Below, one piece after another: positions 36,531 through 44,890 of a DNA stretch of 64,000 bases. Position 1 is the stretch's first letter, and each line of letters starts with the position of its first letter. The stretch is from NCBI GenBank assembly GCA_009909035.1, contig JAAAOB010000053.1, positions 1 through 64,000 of the forward strand, given 5' to 3'. Origin of the DNA: Bacteroidota bacterium. Its GTDB lineage: Bacteria; Bacteroidota; Rhodothermia; Balneolales; Balneolaceae. A program made the position numbers and the translations under genes. Below the pieces are notes generated by a model. The model was not told where the DNA came from. It saw only the letters and a list, made by a program, of their open reading frames with translations, and ran no database searches.

Positions 36531-38639
36531 TTATAACTTAAGCTGAATCTGCAGACCGATATCTGAACGCCGGCTGCCCCGGATTCTGTCCAGGCCACTT
36601 CCAATTTCAAACCGGTTTTCGTAGAGGGTTGTAGCGGCTTTCATTCTGATAGTTAAAGAAGGGATTGGACGATAGCGGAGTACGGCATACATCCGCTGCC
36701 CCTGGTCAAACAACATGGTGTTCGACATCACATAAAGCAGATCATTCTCAAATTGAAAAACCCGCGAGGAGAAGTCGTCGGTATCAAAAAGCGTGATTCT
36801 AAGATCCAGCGTCAGGTCAGGGCCTGGTGAAAACCGTGCATCCTGGAAAAACAGCATGCCGTACGTGGGGGAGCTTGTGGTTTGACGAGCTCTCACAAAA
36901 TCGAGCCTGCTGCGCAATCGAAGGGAGGGGTGAACAGAGTACTCTGCCTGCATTCGCACATTTGATCTTAGGGTGTGGCTCATGTGCAATGTACTGCGTC
37001 CAAATGCATCTTCCTGTTCTGTTTCTTGCTCCCGTTTTTTATGTCGGTACTGCGCATAAATCGTCAGCTCCGCGTAAGGGCTAAATTCGATTCTTGCCAG
37101 ACCATCGGTACCTGTCGTTGGTCTGCTGTTTCGAAAACGGGCTGCAAAGGTTCTGTAGATATCATAATAGCCGCGAAACGATATCTTCTCACCCAACGCC
37201 TGGTCCAGCCCCAGGTAAAAGCCTTCTTCATTTTGAGTGCGTGATTGTTCTCCAAATCCGGACCCAAAAATGGATTGGAAATCGGCAGAGTATCGCCGGT
37301 AGGCCAGTGAAAGTGTGGTTTGGCCCTCAAAGTCAAGTTCGCTGCCTGTTATCAGGCCGGTTCCGCCATTATCGGTTCGGGCGGCTTCTGTAAATAGAAG
37401 TGCGGGGCCGGCAGACACCTGAAGATCGGCGCTTGTGGCTGAAAGATTCCTTCCATGGAACTGGTGAATTTGATAGGGTTGTGTACCTCTCTTCACGGGT
37501 CTGCTGAATTGGTTCCTGTAAGCACTGATTCCTGCGATACCTCGTCCAAAACGGTACCGGATTCTGCCGCCCACGGTTTCTTGCCGCAGGTTGTGCCGCC
37601 TGGCCCGTTCGTTCTGTGTTCGGTGCAGCCCGCTCGCCGACGGGAAACGAACGACAGCTTCATTCACTTCACTGGCGGTTTGTGGCCGGCTGGAGTAGAA
37701 ACCGCTGACCTGCAGATTCTTTCCAACCGTTCCTGCAACTCCCCGAAACGCATTCGTCTCCTGGGTTGATGTATATGGACGAATTCCCAGGTCATTCTTT
37801 ACTGCGGCACCACGAATCTGGCTGCTTTTTCCAAACGAACCTCCAGTCCAGAGGATGAGTCCCTGGCCATACGATACCCTGAAATCTCCGATAACGAGAT
37901 TTAGAAGCGCGCCTGCATTCCTGACTCCCACATGCCAGGATGTATAGTCAAAACCGGTAAACCCGTTCAACGATTCTCCTGGATCTTTCTCCTGCGTGAG
38001 ATTGATTGACAGCCGGTCACTCCTGTACCGTATGCGGTTGCTTAGTTTTAGCGGAGTTCCGGCGTAGCGCGTCTGGGAATCAGACCGGAGATAGCCTTCC
38101 TGCTTTTGAACCACCGACTGAACCCCGGAAAGAAGGTCGAATCGGCCGCCTGCCGTCCAGTAGCGCCGGTTGAGATAGAGGTCGCGCCGCAATTGCGAAC
38201 CGCTGCCGGTTGTTACGAAGGGTCGGATTCTCCGGTACGTTACCTCTCCAATTCCCGGTACGTCCACCAGCTGTGAAATCTCCTCAAAAGGGTTAACCTG
38301 TTCGCGATAGGTTATAATCTCACGGGCAATTCTGAAGTCAATTCCGGGTAACCCTGCCAGTTCGTCTGCATTGGCACGGTTGATGTTCGTCGGGTTTGCC
38401 GCCAGATCTTCGAGAAGCTCCACCAGTTCTGCAATTTCCTGCCCGGATTCTTCGGGATCGAGCTCGGATACCAGCTCCTCAATGACCCTCTCTACCTGCA
38501 GGCGATCAGGCGTACTGTTTTGAGCGAAAAGCGGTGCTTTCGTAAGAGCATGGAGCAGACATACCAGAGCACAAAGCCTGACCCAAACGCGACCAGGTTT
38601 CAAAACTGGTTGAATAAAGACAGATACATCGGGCTGCAT
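36531..38639 (-). CDS. Helix-hairpin-helix protein with predicted outer-membrane beta barrel
   Basis: The 702-residue product has an N-terminal signal of about 40 residues, an acidic helical stretch, then two helix-hairpin-helix motifs like those of ComEA (TNINRANADELAGLPGIDFR and EISQLVDVPGIGEVTYRRIR, residues about 84-142). Residues 150-702 are rich in alternating aromatic and polar beta-strands, with a C-terminus like an outer-membrane barrel. ComEA-type domains bind DNA in the periplasm. Fusion to a barrel is unusual, and I do not know the function. It follows a PorV-like barrel gene by 11 bases, so both are probably one operon. Confidence 0.75.
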   Translation of the reverse strand: MQPDVSVFIQPVLKPGRVWVRLCALVCLLHALTKAPLFAQNSTPDRLQVERVIEELVSELDPEESGQEIAELVELLEDLAANPTNINRANADELAGLPGIDFRIAREIITYREQVNPFEEISQLVDVPGIGEVTYRRIRPFVTTGSGSQLRRDLYLNRRYWTAGGRFDLLSGVQSVVQKQEGYLRSDSQTRYAGTPLKLSNRIRYRSDRLSINLTQEKDPGESLNGFTGFDYTSWHVGVRNAGALLNLVIGDFRVSYGQGLILWTGGSFGKSSQIRGAAVKNDLGIRPYTSTQETNAFRGVAGTVGKNLQVSGFYSSRPQTASEVNEAVVRFPSASGLHRTQNERARRHNLRQETVGGRIRYRFGRGIAGISAYRNQFSRPVKRGTQPYQIHQFHGRNLSATSADLQVSAGPALLFTEAARTDNGGTGLITGSELDFEGQTTLSLAYRRYSADFQSIFGSGFGEQSRTQNEEGFYLGLDQALGEKISFRGYYDIYRTFAARFRNSRPTTGTDGLARIEFSPYAELTIYAQYRHKKREQETEQEDAFGRSTLHMSHTLRSNVRMQAEYSVHPSLRLRSRLDFVRARQTTSSPTYGMLFFQDARFSPGPDLTLDLRITLFDTDDFSSRVFQFENDLLYVMSNTMLFDQGQRMYAVLRYRPIPSLTIRMKAATTLYENRFEIGSGLDRIRGSRRSDIGLQIQLKL

Positions 38640-38650
38640 ATTCTGATGAA

Positions 38651-39466
38651 TTACAGTGAAACACCAAGATCAACTGCCGGACTTAGCCCCAGCAGGACAT
38701 GCTGCTGCAGGGCAATATTAATCTGCCAGCGATCGGTACGATATCCAAAACCGCCGGCATAGGTTTCAGGATTAGTGGTGAAGCCGCCTCTTACGTTTAG
38801 TTCATCGATGAGGGCAGCATCAACACCGAAACGCAGTGAGATAGGGAAGCGAACATCTTTAACAGTCTCAGCAGAAATCATGACGCCGGCAGCGGGTTTG
38901 TAGCTAAGGCCGGCGGCAAGTTCCCGCGGCAGCTCCTCAGCCGTCCCTGCGTAAGTCGGTTGATTTACATTGGTTGCTCTTGCCCCAAACCAGAGCGTTT
39001 CCGTAACGGTGCCGCTCAGTCCAACATCCACCCCCAGGGCTCCCGCTGATCCATACCCGCCACCCTGCTGTACATGGCTGTAGTTTAATGCCAGGCCTGC
39101 ACTGAGATTTTGCCAGCTGTAGGAGTATCCGGCCCGCAGACGAGTTTCGCTGAAGAGATGAAACCCATACCGATGAATTCCCGCTCCCGCAGACCCACCC
39201 ATCAGCGGGAGTGAGACAGCGGCGGCGGCATCGGTAATTTCAGAAATACCGGCATACCGAAAGCCATAAAATGAAACCTGTCGTTCGTCCGTTGGTAAGA
39301 GTGCGATGTTTGAAAAGATTGCCCAGCGACTGTCAGGAAAAGAGACGCCGGTCTGACCCATAGCTATGGAACGAGCTCCCATGGATTGTTGCGTGTAGGC
39401 CACATCGGCTAAAACGAAAACTCCTGATATAGCTATTAGGCAAAAGAAAATATTCCTTTGTATCAT
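38651..39466 (-). CDS. PorV/PorQ-like outer-membrane beta-barrel protein
   Basis: The 271-residue product has a cleavable signal (FFCLIAISGVFVLADVAY), the SMGARSIAMGQTGVSFPDS start typical of the FadL-like PorV/PorQ family, and repeated beta-strand patterns to the end. Such barrels shuttle or export T9SS cargo, or act as structural proteins. A GGGAG site precedes ATG 39466. Its start is only 37 bases from the divergent porD start. Confidence 0.75.
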   Translation of the reverse strand: MIQRNIFFCLIAISGVFVLADVAYTQQSMGARSIAMGQTGVSFPDSRWAIFSNIALLPTDERQVSFYGFRYAGISEITDAAAAVSLPLMGGSAGAGIHRYGFHLFSETRLRAGYSYSWQNLSAGLALNYSHVQQGGGYGSAGALGVDVGLSGTVTETLWFGARATNVNQPTYAGTAEELPRELAAGLSYKPAAGVMISAETVKDVRFPISLRFGVDAALIDELNVRGGFTTNPETYAGGFGYRTDRWQINIALQQHVLLGLSPAVDLGVSL

Positions 39467-39503: not shown

Positions 39504-40424
39504 ATGTTGATTAATATCGAAAAAATAAAATGGGTCGCGGGTTTTTTGGGGCTTATGGTTCTGCTTTTAGCTGAACCTGTTTCTGCCCAGGAATTCAACT
39601 GTGATGTAACCCTGAATACCCGCCAGATAAGCGGGTCATCCTACGAATATATAAACGAGCTGGAGCCGGCGCTGGAATCGTATATCAATGACAACACGTG
39701 GACTGACGACCGGTACCAGGAATTTGAACGCATTCGCTGCCAGGTACAAATTGTGTTAACGAGCGTGGATGATCAATTTAACTACACGGCGGAAGCATTT
39801 TTCAGCCTGCGCAGGCCAATCTACAACACAATTCAGGAGTCATCCTCCTTAGTACTTAGTGATAACAACTGGACATTCAGCTATCCTAAAAATAAAAATC
39901 TACTTTTTGATGAGCTCCAGTTCGATGATTTGACCAGTTTTATCGACTTTTACATGTACGTAATTCTTGGGTATGATTACGATAGTTTTGAACGACTTGG
40001 GGGATCCCGGCACTACAATAAAGCACAGAATATTTTTGAATTGGGAAGAAACAGCGGTGCTCAGGGGTGGGGCCGGTCTATTGGGGCTCAGCGCAATCGG
40101 TTCGGGTTGATCTCCGACATGCTAAACCCAAACTATCAGCCGCTCCGTGAAGCTGTTTATCGATACCACCGCTTTGGACTTGACCAATTCACGATTAATA
40201 ACCGGGAATCGATCCGGGAGGTCGTCGATGTTTTAAAAAATCTGGAAGAGGCGAAGAGACGCACAAGCAACAACTACCTGTTCGATATTTTCTTTGATAC
40301 AAAGTACAATGAAATTGTTGCGCTGCTTCAATCCGCGAACGTTCAAACTCGGTTGGAGGCCTACAATGTACTGCGCGATGTAGATCCGGCGCATTCAACA
40401 GCTTACGAAAGGCTTCAAAATTAA
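39504..40424 (+). CDS. porD: PorD-like type IX secretion protein (DUF4835)
   Basis: A 306-residue exported protein with a signal ending near residue 28 (LLLAEPVSAQ) and the DUF4835 pattern: FNCDVTLNTRQISG, ERIRCQVQIVLTSV, FSYPKNKNLLFDELQFDDLT and the long helical C-terminus. DUF4835 proteins are called PorD and are needed for type IX secretion in Bacteroidota. It starts 37 bases from the divergent barrel gene, so both share a compact regulatory region. Confidence 0.88.
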   Translation: MLINIEKIKWVAGFLGLMVLLLAEPVSAQEFNCDVTLNTRQISGSSYEYINELEPALESYINDNTWTDDRYQEFERIRCQVQIVLTSVDDQFNYTAEAFFSLRRPIYNTIQESSSLVLSDNNWTFSYPKNKNLLFDELQFDDLTSFIDFYMYVILGYDYDSFERLGGSRHYNKAQNIFELGRNSGAQGWGRSIGAQRNRFGLISDMLNPNYQPLREAVYRYHRFGLDQFTINNRESIREVVDVLKNLEEAKRRTSNNYLFDIFFDTKYNEIVALLQSANVQTRLEAYNVLRDVDPAHSTAYERLQN

Positions 40425-41005: not shown

Positions 41006-44000
41006 TTATTTAATCAGCGTAAGTTTTCTTGTTATAACTGACGTGCCGGTGACCATCCTCGCTATGTATGTGCCGCTGGAAAATGCCGATGCATCCCAGA
41101 CTCGTTCGTGAACGCCGGCACCGAGCGTTTGATCCACAAGGGTCGAAATTTTGCGCCCCAGCATATCGTAAATGGTAACCTGCACCCGGCCTTCAATCGG
41201 TAACTCAAAACGAAATGTGGTGGATGGGTTAAACGGGTTGGGAAAGTTTTGATGGAGCATAAAGGTATCGGGCAATCCGTCTGCATCCTTTCCGGGCTGA
41301 ATCACCAGTTTAAATTGAGCATGGCTGTTCCCTTCTCTCTTCACAATGCTGTTGGTTTTGGCGTGGAAATCAGCTTTGGATGCAGCGCGGAGATGATTCA
41401 TGGAAATGGAGATGGAGCGGGTGTTACGCAGATCGTACCGCTGTCCATTCTGTTCATTTATAATGAAAACCTCCCATCCATCCGGAATATGGTCAAAATT
41501 GGTGATGTTTAAGGTTATGTCGTCTGTTGATGGTGATCCTTTTTTGAACGTATTGATGCTGAAGGGCACAACAAGCTCCGAACCAAACCGCCGCGGCAGG
41601 TTATTAATAGCCAGCCGTTCGCCTGTATCAGATAGCGAGTAAAACTCCAGGTAGTCACCAATTCCCGGTGGTGGCAGCAGCTTGAAAGCGTCCCGGCTAT
41701 CCAGCCCAAGGCTGCCGGAATCATCAAACGTTACGTGCGCTGTGGATCGATACCGCCGGGACGTCCGGGCGTTGATACTGATGTACGGTGTCTCCGGCTG
41801 GTCGGCTTTTCCTGCAAATGAGCCACCAAACGTCTTTGCATCCTCATGCACCGTAAGGGTTGGATTTTCGCCGGTGGCATTCACCCAAAACGCCTGAAAC
41901 GGCGCAATAATACCATTGGCTATATCGCCGACGCTGCCGTTCCAGGTCAGGTACTGGTTGATATTTGGGTCCCAGACATAGATTTCCTGGCTAATATTGT
42001 TTTTGGTCAAGGAGGGGTGATCCCAGTCGATGGCTGCACCAAATGGGTTGCCAACCATATTCCATCCCGTATCGGCCGCTGCAGTGTATGTCACAGGCAA
42101 ATTGATCTGTCCGCCCGTTCCTTCATGTTCAAGGCCGTTTACTTCCAGGAGGTAGGGTAGCGGATCATTATAGTTATTGTCTTCAGGCACATCCCCAAAC
42201 ATGTAGACATGATATCCGCGCCCAACCGTAACGGAGTCGGTGCTGCTTTCGGGAGCCCGCCACCGCTGGTTATCCGTTCCTTCTATAGTCTCGTCATACC
42301 ATAACACATTGGGCTGAAGCGGGCCGGGGAGTGATGCGCCTGTGTAGCCCTGGGTGAGGACGTCACTCAAAAAGGTATCGAAGGTTGCCTGCAGGGGCGA
42401 AGAGAGCATCCTATAGCCCGGCTGACCTGTGATCTTCAGCTGATAGGTCAGCTCGCCCGATGTGATGCTCTTGGTGTTTGCAATCAGTGAGAGGCCGTCA
42501 CCCACCACTAACGATCCATCGTTGAGGGAAAGCGTTCCGTTTACGCGTATTGATTGATGGAGCGATACGGATTGAGTATTGCTGATGGTAAGATGTTGAA
42601 CATCCGCCGGCAGTCCATCCCCGGTTGTTTGAGGTTGCGTTCCATTGAATAGATAGTGCGCCAGCTGGCTATATGATCTTGACGCTGTTTGAATTGTACC
42701 TTCCGGTGCGGACAGTGTAATGCCATCCGGAGACTGAATCTCGATTGTCCCGCCATCATCCAGGGTAAAACTGCCAGAGCCTTCGGCAATGTACCCATTT
42801 GTATCCAATCTGCCGGCACCCTCTCCGGTATCGGTTATGCTTAGAACGCCGCTGCTTCCAATGGTTAGGTCACTGACCCAGGTGATGTTGTGATCAACGG
42901 AGGCCGATCCACCAATAATGACAGTATCCTCGGGGCCGGGAATGAAACCGGCCTCCGGCCCGCCGTGTCCTTCGAAAGACCAAACAGCGGCACTGTTCCA
43001 ATTGCCGGATTGCCGGCTGTAATACACGTTTTCGGTCGTCTCTTTCACATACCGGATAATGACAATCCCGGAGCCGCCCTCTGCGCCTGCCCGGCTGTTG
43101 TTTCCGCCACCGCCACCGCCGCCGGTTCCGTCCTGACCCGGCGTTGGCGGGGTGGAGTCATTGGCACCGTTGCCCCCGCCGCCAAGACCCCCAAGACCAA
43201 CGGGGGTTGTCCCCTGCGCTGCGCCGCCTCCGCCGCCCCCGGCATAGGTGTTGGGGCTTCCCGTAATCGAGATTTCAAGACCGTCTCCGCCATCACCGCC
43301 TTTTTCCCATGCATTTCCCGCCAGGTTTTCTGCGGTTGTGCCGGCACCGCCACCACCCGTTGCACCGGCTCCAAGCGGTGAGCCACTGGAATTCCCCCCA
43401 CGGTTCCCAAACTCCCCGGCCCCGGACTGCAACGCTTCACCACCGGGCGCCCCTCGTGATCCGCCTCCGCTGCCTCCGCTGTTTCCGCGGCCGTTTCCAC
43501 CAATTCCGCCCCCGCCGCCAAGGCCGGTGATATTCGCAAACGAGCTATTCTCTCCGTTGCTGCCCGAATTGTTTCCGGGTGTCCCGGGAGCACCGCCATC
43601 TCCAACTGTTATGGAGACGGGGCTGCCCAGTGATGATATGTCATATCCTTCAAGATACACAAGTCCACCTGCACCGCCCCCGCCGGAGCCGGCCCCGCTG
43701 AACGCCGTTGAAGTTCCACCGCCGCCTCCGCCGCCCACCACGAGCAGGTCGATTTCTGTCACCCCATCCGGAATGTCCCATGAGCTTGTCCCCGGCGTAT
43801 CAAAAATTTCAACAAATTCTTGTGTTGTAACGGCTACAAAGCTTATGGACAAGTTTCCGATCGTGGGATCGCTATCCGTTGGTCCGAGGTAAGCGGTAAT
43901 TGCAGCCGTTTCAGGGGTTTCTGAAGAGGTGAGTGTTACGGTGTACGTCCCGTCGCCATTGTCATTGGCAAGAACTGCCGTTCCCGATGCGCCGCCCTGG

Positions 44001-44890
44001 CCGTCACTCACTGTTCCCGCCGAGGTAGTAATGTATACAGAGTTGCCGCCATTGGGAATCTCAGTACCTGCATCATCTTTCAACTGAACCGTGATCTGGG
44101 TGGTTGAGCTGCCATTGGCGGGCAGTTCCTGGCTGACTGATGTGAGTGTGGACTGACCGGCATCCGGGGCTCCAACCGGCGGGGTGTAGCTAAAATTGCT
44201 TATTTCTGTAAAGGCTTCTCCAAATAGCTGATCCAAAGAACTGGAAAGAAAACAAAACTGGTCTCCGCCCTGAATGGAAATATCTACCGTTCCGGACTGC
44301 ACGTCGGGCCCATTATCATCCGTAAGCTGGGATACCGTACCATTGACTACATATCCGAAGGGATCCCATCGTGGGCCATCACTGTCGTTGGTCTCGTACT
44401 GCCAGGTAAAGGCAAGAGTGCCCTCCCCGGTTCCGGGTATAGAGATGCAGTATGTGGAGTTGTTGGCTGAGTTCGACTGATTGTTTGACCCGGTCATTGT
44501 GATTGAGCTGGGAGCATTGCCGGTATCTACTGAACCATCTCCGCCATCGGGGTCAAAGGTCCAGTTACCGGGGGAAAAATCTCCCGTAAAATCTGTCGTG
44601 GGTGCCTGCATTGCTCCAAAAAGGGAGGCGTGGACGCTTTTATTCTTTGATTGTCTTGTATTATAGGAGGAGAGCTGGTCCGGCAGCTTCTGTGGGTCTT
44701 CATTTCTCGATACTGTGTCGGAATATGAGGGTAGTAGAATCGTAGCGAAACCGGCTAACTGTACCGGCTGCCCATCCCATATGTTGGTTTTTGGCATACT
44801 GTCCACCGGGTTGGCTGCTGTATTCCCGCTTACACCCGCCAGGGTAATAAAGAGCAAAACAAATATTTTCGAGATCTGCTGTAAACTCAT
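41006..44890 (-). CDS. Large T9SS cargo protein with invasin-like and glycine-rich domains
   Basis: A 1294-residue protein with an N-terminal signal (ISKIFVLLFITLAGVSGNTA). An Ig/invasin-like module follows (about 245-350), then a glycine-rich region of some 240 residues, about 375-615, ending in the hallmark GSGIVIIRY. A G8-like beta region comes next (VYYSRQSGNWNSAAVWSF). The C-terminal type A sorting domain carries NFPNPFNPSTTFRFELP and ends RKLTLIK. The protein is therefore predicted to leave the cell by type IX secretion and stay on the surface or in the medium. It lies next to porD on the opposite strand. Confidence 0.88.
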   Translation of the reverse strand: MSLQQISKIFVLLFITLAGVSGNTAANPVDSMPKTNIWDGQPVQLAGFATILLPSYSDTVSRNEDPQKLPDQLSSYNTRQSKNKSVHASLFGAMQAPTTDFTGDFSPGNWTFDPDGGDGSVDTGNAPSSITMTGSNNQSNSANNSTYCISIPGTGEGTLAFTWQYETNDSDGPRWDPFGYVVNGTVSQLTDDNGPDVQSGTVDISIQGGDQFCFLSSSLDQLFGEAFTEISNFSYTPPVGAPDAGQSTLTSVSQELPANGSSTTQITVQLKDDAGTEIPNGGNSVYITTSAGTVSDGQGGASGTAVLANDNGDGTYTVTLTSSETPETAAITAYLGPTDSDPTIGNLSISFVAVTTQEFVEIFDTPGTSSWDIPDGVTEIDLLVVGGGGGGGTSTAFSGAGSGGGGAGGLVYLEGYDISSLGSPVSITVGDGGAPGTPGNNSGSNGENSSFANITGLGGGGGIGGNGRGNSGGSGGGSRGAPGGEALQSGAGEFGNRGGNSSGSPLGAGATGGGGAGTTAENLAGNAWEKGGDGGDGLEISITGSPNTYAGGGGGGAAQGTTPVGLGGLGGGGNGANDSTPPTPGQDGTGGGGGGGNNSRAGAEGGSGIVIIRYVKETTENVYYSRQSGNWNSAAVWSFEGHGGPEAGFIPGPEDTVIIGGSASVDHNITWVSDLTIGSSGVLSITDTGEGAGRLDTNGYIAEGSGSFTLDDGGTIEIQSPDGITLSAPEGTIQTASRSYSQLAHYLFNGTQPQTTGDGLPADVQHLTISNTQSVSLHQSIRVNGTLSLNDGSLVVGDGLSLIANTKSITSGELTYQLKITGQPGYRMLSSPLQATFDTFLSDVLTQGYTGASLPGPLQPNVLWYDETIEGTDNQRWRAPESSTDSVTVGRGYHVYMFGDVPEDNNYNDPLPYLLEVNGLEHEGTGGQINLPVTYTAAADTGWNMVGNPFGAAIDWDHPSLTKNNISQEIYVWDPNINQYLTWNGSVGDIANGIIAPFQAFWVNATGENPTLTVHEDAKTFGGSFAGKADQPETPYISINARTSRRYRSTAHVTFDDSGSLGLDSRDAFKLLPPPGIGDYLEFYSLSDTGERLAINNLPRRFGSELVVPFSINTFKKGSPSTDDITLNITNFDHIPDGWEVFIINEQNGQRYDLRNTRSISISMNHLRAASKADFHAKTNSIVKREGNSHAQFKLVIQPGKDADGLPDTFMLHQNFPNPFNPSTTFRFELPIEGRVQVTIYDMLGRKISTLVDQTLGAGVHERVWDASAFSSGTYIARMVTGTSVITRKLTLIK

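Follow-up and report, generated by a model that had tools for sequence, protein, structure and literature searches.

A ComEA-type helix-hairpin-helix domain fused to a predicted outer-membrane barrel and paired with a PorV-like barrel: a candidate DNA entry portal of Bacteroidota

As far as the literature found goes, the route of DNA across the outer membrane of Bacteroidota is an open question, addressed by one transposon screen in Riemerella anatipestifer, the transformable relative studied in most depth among those found; the screen named RA0C_RS04915, RS04920 and RS02645 as transformation candidates (PMC8459023). RA0C_RS04915 is a predicted outer-membrane protein that is essential for transformation and found only in Flavobacteriaceae, while RS02645 carries a helix-hairpin-helix (HHH) domain at residues 236-301 and is predicted to be periplasmic; a periplasmic HHH protein, together with a predicted outer-membrane protein, was proposed to serve DNA uptake in Bacteroidota (PMC8459023). 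In Vibrio cholerae, DNA binding by the HHH protein ComEA requires the GIG motif of hairpin 1 and the lysines that follow it (PMC3879209). Partnerships between a small and a large barrel have also been described, as for the 14-stranded BamG, which partners the larger barrel BamA (PMC12611786, PMC12578637).

Here, we describe a pair of genes, designated PVQ and HHHB, found in a 64,000-nucleotide stretch of a Balneolaceae genome (contig JAAAOB010000053.1, assembly GCA_009909035.1; the window). They are transcribed from the minus strand in the order PVQ, HHHB, and comprise the following features:

36531..38639, minus strand: HHHB gene, an intact open reading frame (ORF) of 702 aa; exported, with a predicted outer-membrane barrel and a periplasmic ComEA-type HHH domain
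38523..38639, minus strand: predicted HHHB signal peptide, approximately residues 1-39, ending ...APLFA/Q (hydrophobic N-terminus, by eye)
38397..38513, minus strand: two acidic helices of HHHB preceding the HHH domain, residues 43-81 (AlphaFold2/DSSP)
38211..38390, minus strand: HHH_3 domain of HHHB, residues 84-143; hairpin 1 PGID (second Gly lost), hairpin 2 PGIG kept
36534..38162, minus strand: predicted 24-stranded barrel of HHHB, residues 160-702 (AlphaFold2, strand count, Foldseek)
38640..38650, no strand: gap of 11 bases between the HHHB and PVQ ORFs
38651..39466, minus strand: PVQ gene, 271 aa; signal peptide and predicted 14-stranded PorV/FadL-like barrel; adjoins HHHB in most relatives
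39504..40424, plus strand: porD (T9SS_PorD), a divergent neighbour judged to lie outside the system

The divergent porD reported by the first-pass annotation was confirmed: it starts 37 bases from the PVQ gene, and its product scores 292 bits against the NCBIfam T9SS_PorD model (cut-off 170). Farther along, positions 41006-44890 encode a secreted protein of 1294 aa; it has a Gly-rich stretch, and its C-terminus resembles, by eye, a type IX sorting domain.

Relatives of HHHB along its whole length were found throughout the order and the phylum. Q40, which follows the predicted signal peptide, is kept in 83% of 63 representatives, and residues 41-83 carry a net charge of -11. A basic whole protein was rejected as a family trait, the pI being 9.4 in the window with a median of 5.8 in Balneolales.

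The HHH domain of HHHB matches Pfam HHH_3 with an E-value of 5.3e-16 (58.9 bits, cut-off 27) over two hairpins. Its best match among solved structures is ComEA, whose chains match at E-values of 1e-7 to 1e-5, and on these sequence matches the domain is of the ComEA subtype; HHHB as a whole scores below the NCBIfam whole-protein ComEA cut-offs. A Pfam scan of 28 HHHB members returned HHH-fold families alone, with no TonB-dependent receptor plug or receptor domain. The GxG of hairpin 1 is lost in 56 of the 57 Balneolales proteins, where it mostly reads PG-x-N, and in all 59 members from elsewhere; that of hairpin 2 (GIG) is kept in 55/57 and 1/59, respectively. The two ComEA-like motifs for which DNA binding had been suggested are therefore present as a two-hairpin HHH_3 domain, but the contacts of hairpin 1 are gone nearly everywhere and those of hairpin 2 are gone outside Balneolales. 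The domain seems to be retained less for contacts with DNA than for its fold, because the fold positions N87, L94, R112 and P140 stay conserved while the hairpin contacts vanish. Matches of HHH domains of the HHHB type extend to PsbU and GspK, to our knowledge not DNA-binding proteins; these matches suggest that the HHH fold can serve protein contacts. A basic HHH domain was considered as a signature of DNA binding and rejected, since the net charge of the HHHB domain is not usefully different from that of ComEA and the domain in the window is slightly acidic (net -2).

Structure prediction agrees with the first reading of this gene as a large outer-membrane barrel joined to an HHH domain. The AlphaFold2 model of HHHB (m113f46d48a6e; a moderate model, with pLDDT 75 and pTM 0.72) places approximately 24 long strands within residues 166-701. 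Foldseek searches with this barrel returned solely large outer-membrane barrels (MtrB, TonB-dependent receptors, AlgE, FimD) with a TM-score of at most 0.45, and this fold comparison gave no named kin. Most of the invariant residues of HHHB sit in the barrel and not in the HHH domain. Inward-facing strand positions are Arg-rich (13.5%) and carry a net charge of +6 per 100 residues versus +3.6 for outward-facing ones, in a comparison without an outside control; the lumen charge was judged weak as evidence.

For PVQ, AlphaFold2 predicted a 14-strand barrel (pLDDT 87.5, pTM 0.80) with a fold close to PorV and TodX/FadL, the TM-score to PorV being 0.76-0.77 by query length. The window's PVQ scores 35.6 bits against the PorV/PorQ family model NF033709 (cut-off 90) and also falls below the PorQ cut-off; its relatives at loci L166, L204 and L206 reach 55-59 bits against NF033709. 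Because its sequence attains 35.6 of the required 90 bits, we call PVQ PorV-like, judging by the modelled fold, and not a certified PorV or PorQ. Thus, the predicted PorV/PorQ-type neighbour, 11 bases from HHHB, is supported by its fold, but not by its sequence.

In three genera of two families, PVQ itself carries a C-terminal ComEA-type HHH domain, forming single proteins of 371-386 aa:

L204:2327-3439, strand not given: PVQ barrel with C-terminal HHH domain
L205:2954-4111, strand not given: PVQ barrel with C-terminal HHH domain
L206:2330-3478, strand not given: PVQ barrel with C-terminal HHH domain

The two fusions that were scanned score 62-63.5 bits against Pfam HHH. At the sequence level, they suggest that the HHH domain is tied to a PVQ-HHHB complex from a second side. 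Long ORFs at L186 and L188 that appeared to be fusions were rejected as open-frame artefacts. The window's assembly contains a second PVQ gene on another contig (C18; L207:4561-5412), which scores 395 bits against the PVQ profile. Downstream of it lie a 314-aa gene and enolase-superfamily-like genes but no HHHB; as the assembly is 6.6% contaminated, this gene may be either a paralogue or part of a foreign contig.

The pairing extends well beyond the window. In Balneolales, PVQ and HHHB stand together beside a divergent porD at nearly all loci read, and at 38 of 59 loci outside this order a PVQ gene occurs in the neighbourhood of HHHB, in nearly all cases as the gene immediately upstream. Across 92 loci with adjacent genes, the median gap is 0 bp, with 86 at 30 bp or less. 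This conserved neighbourhood establishes the linkage of the two genes in relatives. At a threshold of 1e-12, the HHHB profile matched 242 of the 297 genomes in the phylum sample; removal of 30 weak matches resembling ComEA alone leaves approximately 212 true HHHB genomes (hand count from the table). In family f24, nine of the ten genomes searched yielded no PVQ. This family (65 genomes) keeps HHHB without SprA, and its HHHB may act alone or with another partner. No paper describing the PVQ-HHHB pair was found in the literature, of which open-licence papers were covered, so a prior mention elsewhere is possible.

A link to DNA uptake emerged from a coordinate comparison of HHHB and ComEC matches, in which the two lay side by side in two genomes of family f19. 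This family is distant from the window's own lineage, and the linkage evidence comes from it. At f19 loci, PVQ, HHHB and comEC are co-oriented, with ends overlapping or nearly touching, and the gene downstream of HHHB is ComEC by Pfam PF03772. A wider search found HHHB in 64 of 81 f19 genomes. Among 50 HHHB loci read, comEC starts no more than 60 bp past the HHHB stop in 44, mostly at -4 to +5 bp, and PVQ lies upstream of HHHB in 45. The exceptions to the 60 bp threshold are four loci of genus g163, namely L240, L243 and L245, where the flank is only 1.5 kb, and L262, with one gene between HHHB and comEC; L249, for which the comEC start is an uncertain estimate; and L223, a narrow miss at 62 bp. 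The arrangement spans about 20 genera, and the identity of f19 HHHB proteins to the query falls to ~31%; therefore, it is old. The Pfam score of the HHH domain next to comEC also falls, to 17.8-29.2 bits against the cut-off of 27.

In genus g90 (L166, L167), a MerR-like gene precedes PVQ-HHHB-comEC, whereas in genus g95 (L267, L268) the same gene lies directly before comEC and exactly PVQ and HHHB are missing, giving a clean presence/absence junction. Both comEC and HHHB are absent from G336 and G357, from G356, and from G359 (three genera), whose congeners keep both; the joint absence could be a single deletion of one operon. Genera g95 and g170 and genome G350 keep comEC without HHHB. Outside f19, no comEC was found within about 6 kb at any HHHB locus read, and as the linkage is seen in f19 only, a single ancestral event may lie behind it. 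Nearly all genomes of the phylum sample have ComEC, often without HHHB. The genome of the window encodes ComEC and a separate ComEA on other contigs, with comEC unlinked to HHHB.

Building on the intact genes, the HHH fold, the predicted barrels, the phylum-wide pairing, the PVQ-HHH fusions and the f19 operon, we infer complex formation, DNA as the substrate, the direction of transport and a role for each part as follows. In the outer membrane, PVQ and HHHB would assemble into a complex acting as an entry portal for extracellular DNA and passing it on to ComEC; we give this proposal an even chance. HHHB would supply a wide (~24-strand) pore, with PVQ as a lateral partner that gates or stabilises it, by analogy with PorV and SprA or BamG and BamA. 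On the periplasmic side, the HHH domain, a derivative of ComEA, would take up the DNA as it emerges; in most lineages, it would mainly be a folded docking or plug element linking the pore to ComEA/ComEC. DNA uptake, which the first-pass annotation had raised, thus gains independent support from the f19 operon, although the DNA-contact features of the hairpins are mostly lost. More tentatively, and at somewhat less than an even chance, the pair would represent a previously unrecognised DNA conduit, free of pilus and secretin, in most Bacteroidota outside the flavobacterial families, leading from the HHHB barrel with its PorV-like gate straight to ComEC.

A different substrate, such as a nutrient, a lipid or an envelope polymer, might instead be transported or assembled by HHHB and PVQ. 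The HHH domain would then be a periplasmic module with a docking or structural task, as it is in PsbU or GspK, and the comEC linkage of f19 would be incidental or reflect shared expression. We consider this possible, though somewhat short of an even chance. The variation of the hairpins and basic contacts across the family, set beside a conserved barrel and conserved fold positions, is consistent with it, as are the confinement of the comEC linkage to one family and the absence of PVQ from several HHHB-bearing genomes, nine f24 ones included. FadL-type barrels, moreover, often carry hydrophobic compounds. Against such a role stand the tight operon with comEC, long-lived and spread over about 20 genera, and the specifically ComEA-like character of an HHH domain that is found fused to PVQ too.

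It is improbable that HHHB acts as a DNA-ratcheting ComEA anchored in the outer membrane, with the pore formed by another protein. Balneolales proteins do keep the GIG of hairpin 2 together with K/R at position 103 (48/57) and at position 137 (54/57), but the DNA-contact features are lost where the comEC operon occurs, and most of the invariant residues lie in the barrel. In addition, Balneolales already own separate ComEA proteins, with GxG in both hairpins in 21 of 21.

The first-pass annotation had also raised a tie to type IX secretion, including nucleoprotein export, which the distributions of its components contradict. SprA is absent from 69 of the 297 Bacteroidota genomes, 65 of them in f24 and the others being G060, G266, G274 and G306 (hand comparison of tables); 68 of these 69 carry HHHB, the exception being G306. 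Conversely, the SprA-positive families f27, f25, f13, f10, f29 and f8 are without HHHB. In a check of 33 genomes, every SprA-positive genome also had PorD, and none of the 14 without SprA did, 13 of these being HHHB-bearing. As PorD follows SprA and not HHHB, porD is judged to be a neighbour only. We therefore rejected membership of the pair in the type IX system: a role as its accessory part, or in exporting nucleoprotein through it, is highly improbable on these patterns, despite the PorV-like fold of PVQ and a divergent porD next door in 64 loci (12 outside Balneolales). Separately, seven f13 genomes (G205, G245, G252, G283, G295, G307 and G315) have SprA and lack both ComEC and HHHB.

The absence of HHHB from some of these families touches on the Riemerella candidates. 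DUF5689, a domain of RA0C_RS04920, the operon partner of RA0C_RS04915, has strong matches in 12 of 13 genomes of f27 and f25, two families inferred to be flavobacterial from these matches and those to SprA. The absence of HHHB there fits a replacement of one portal by another, in few lineages. A general complementarity of HHHB and DUF5689 was set aside, as G116 and G274 have both and the pattern is confounded by phylogeny. For most of the remaining Bacteroidota, the PVQ-HHHB pair, with comEC as an operon partner, is a concrete and testable candidate for the DNA door. If this is true, the portal bears on the spread of genes in gut, oral and marine communities, and the pair is a further case of a PorV/FadL-type barrel partnering a giant barrel.

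Several known systems can be compared with the pair. Like ComEA, HHHB is exported and has an HHH_3 domain with two hairpins; unlike the small, barrel-free ComEA, it has this domain fused to a large predicted barrel, and neither the GxG of hairpin 1 nor the pair of lysines shown to bind DNA in Vibrio cholerae (PMC3879209) is conserved in it. PVQ shares its 14 strands with the PorV, FadL and BamG barrels, of which PorV and BamG both act beside a larger barrel, but its gene is paired with HHHB and not with SprA or BamA, and its sequence is far under the PorV-family and PorQ cut-offs. PorV partners SprA, the larger barrel of type IX secretion, and this translocon is comparable, by analogy only, as a large barrel with a PorV-like partner; no sequence match between HHHB and the SprA family was seen, and the phyletic patterns disagree. 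The likeness to TonB-dependent receptors is confined to the barrel. The secretin PilQ of the type IV pilus would likewise take DNA across the outer membrane, with an architecture unrelated to PVQ-HHHB. The Riemerella proteins share with our proposal the combination of an outer-membrane protein and an HHH element; they differ in that RS02645 is not a barrel and RS04915 is restricted to Flavobacteriaceae, whereas the flavobacterial-type families sampled have no HHHB.
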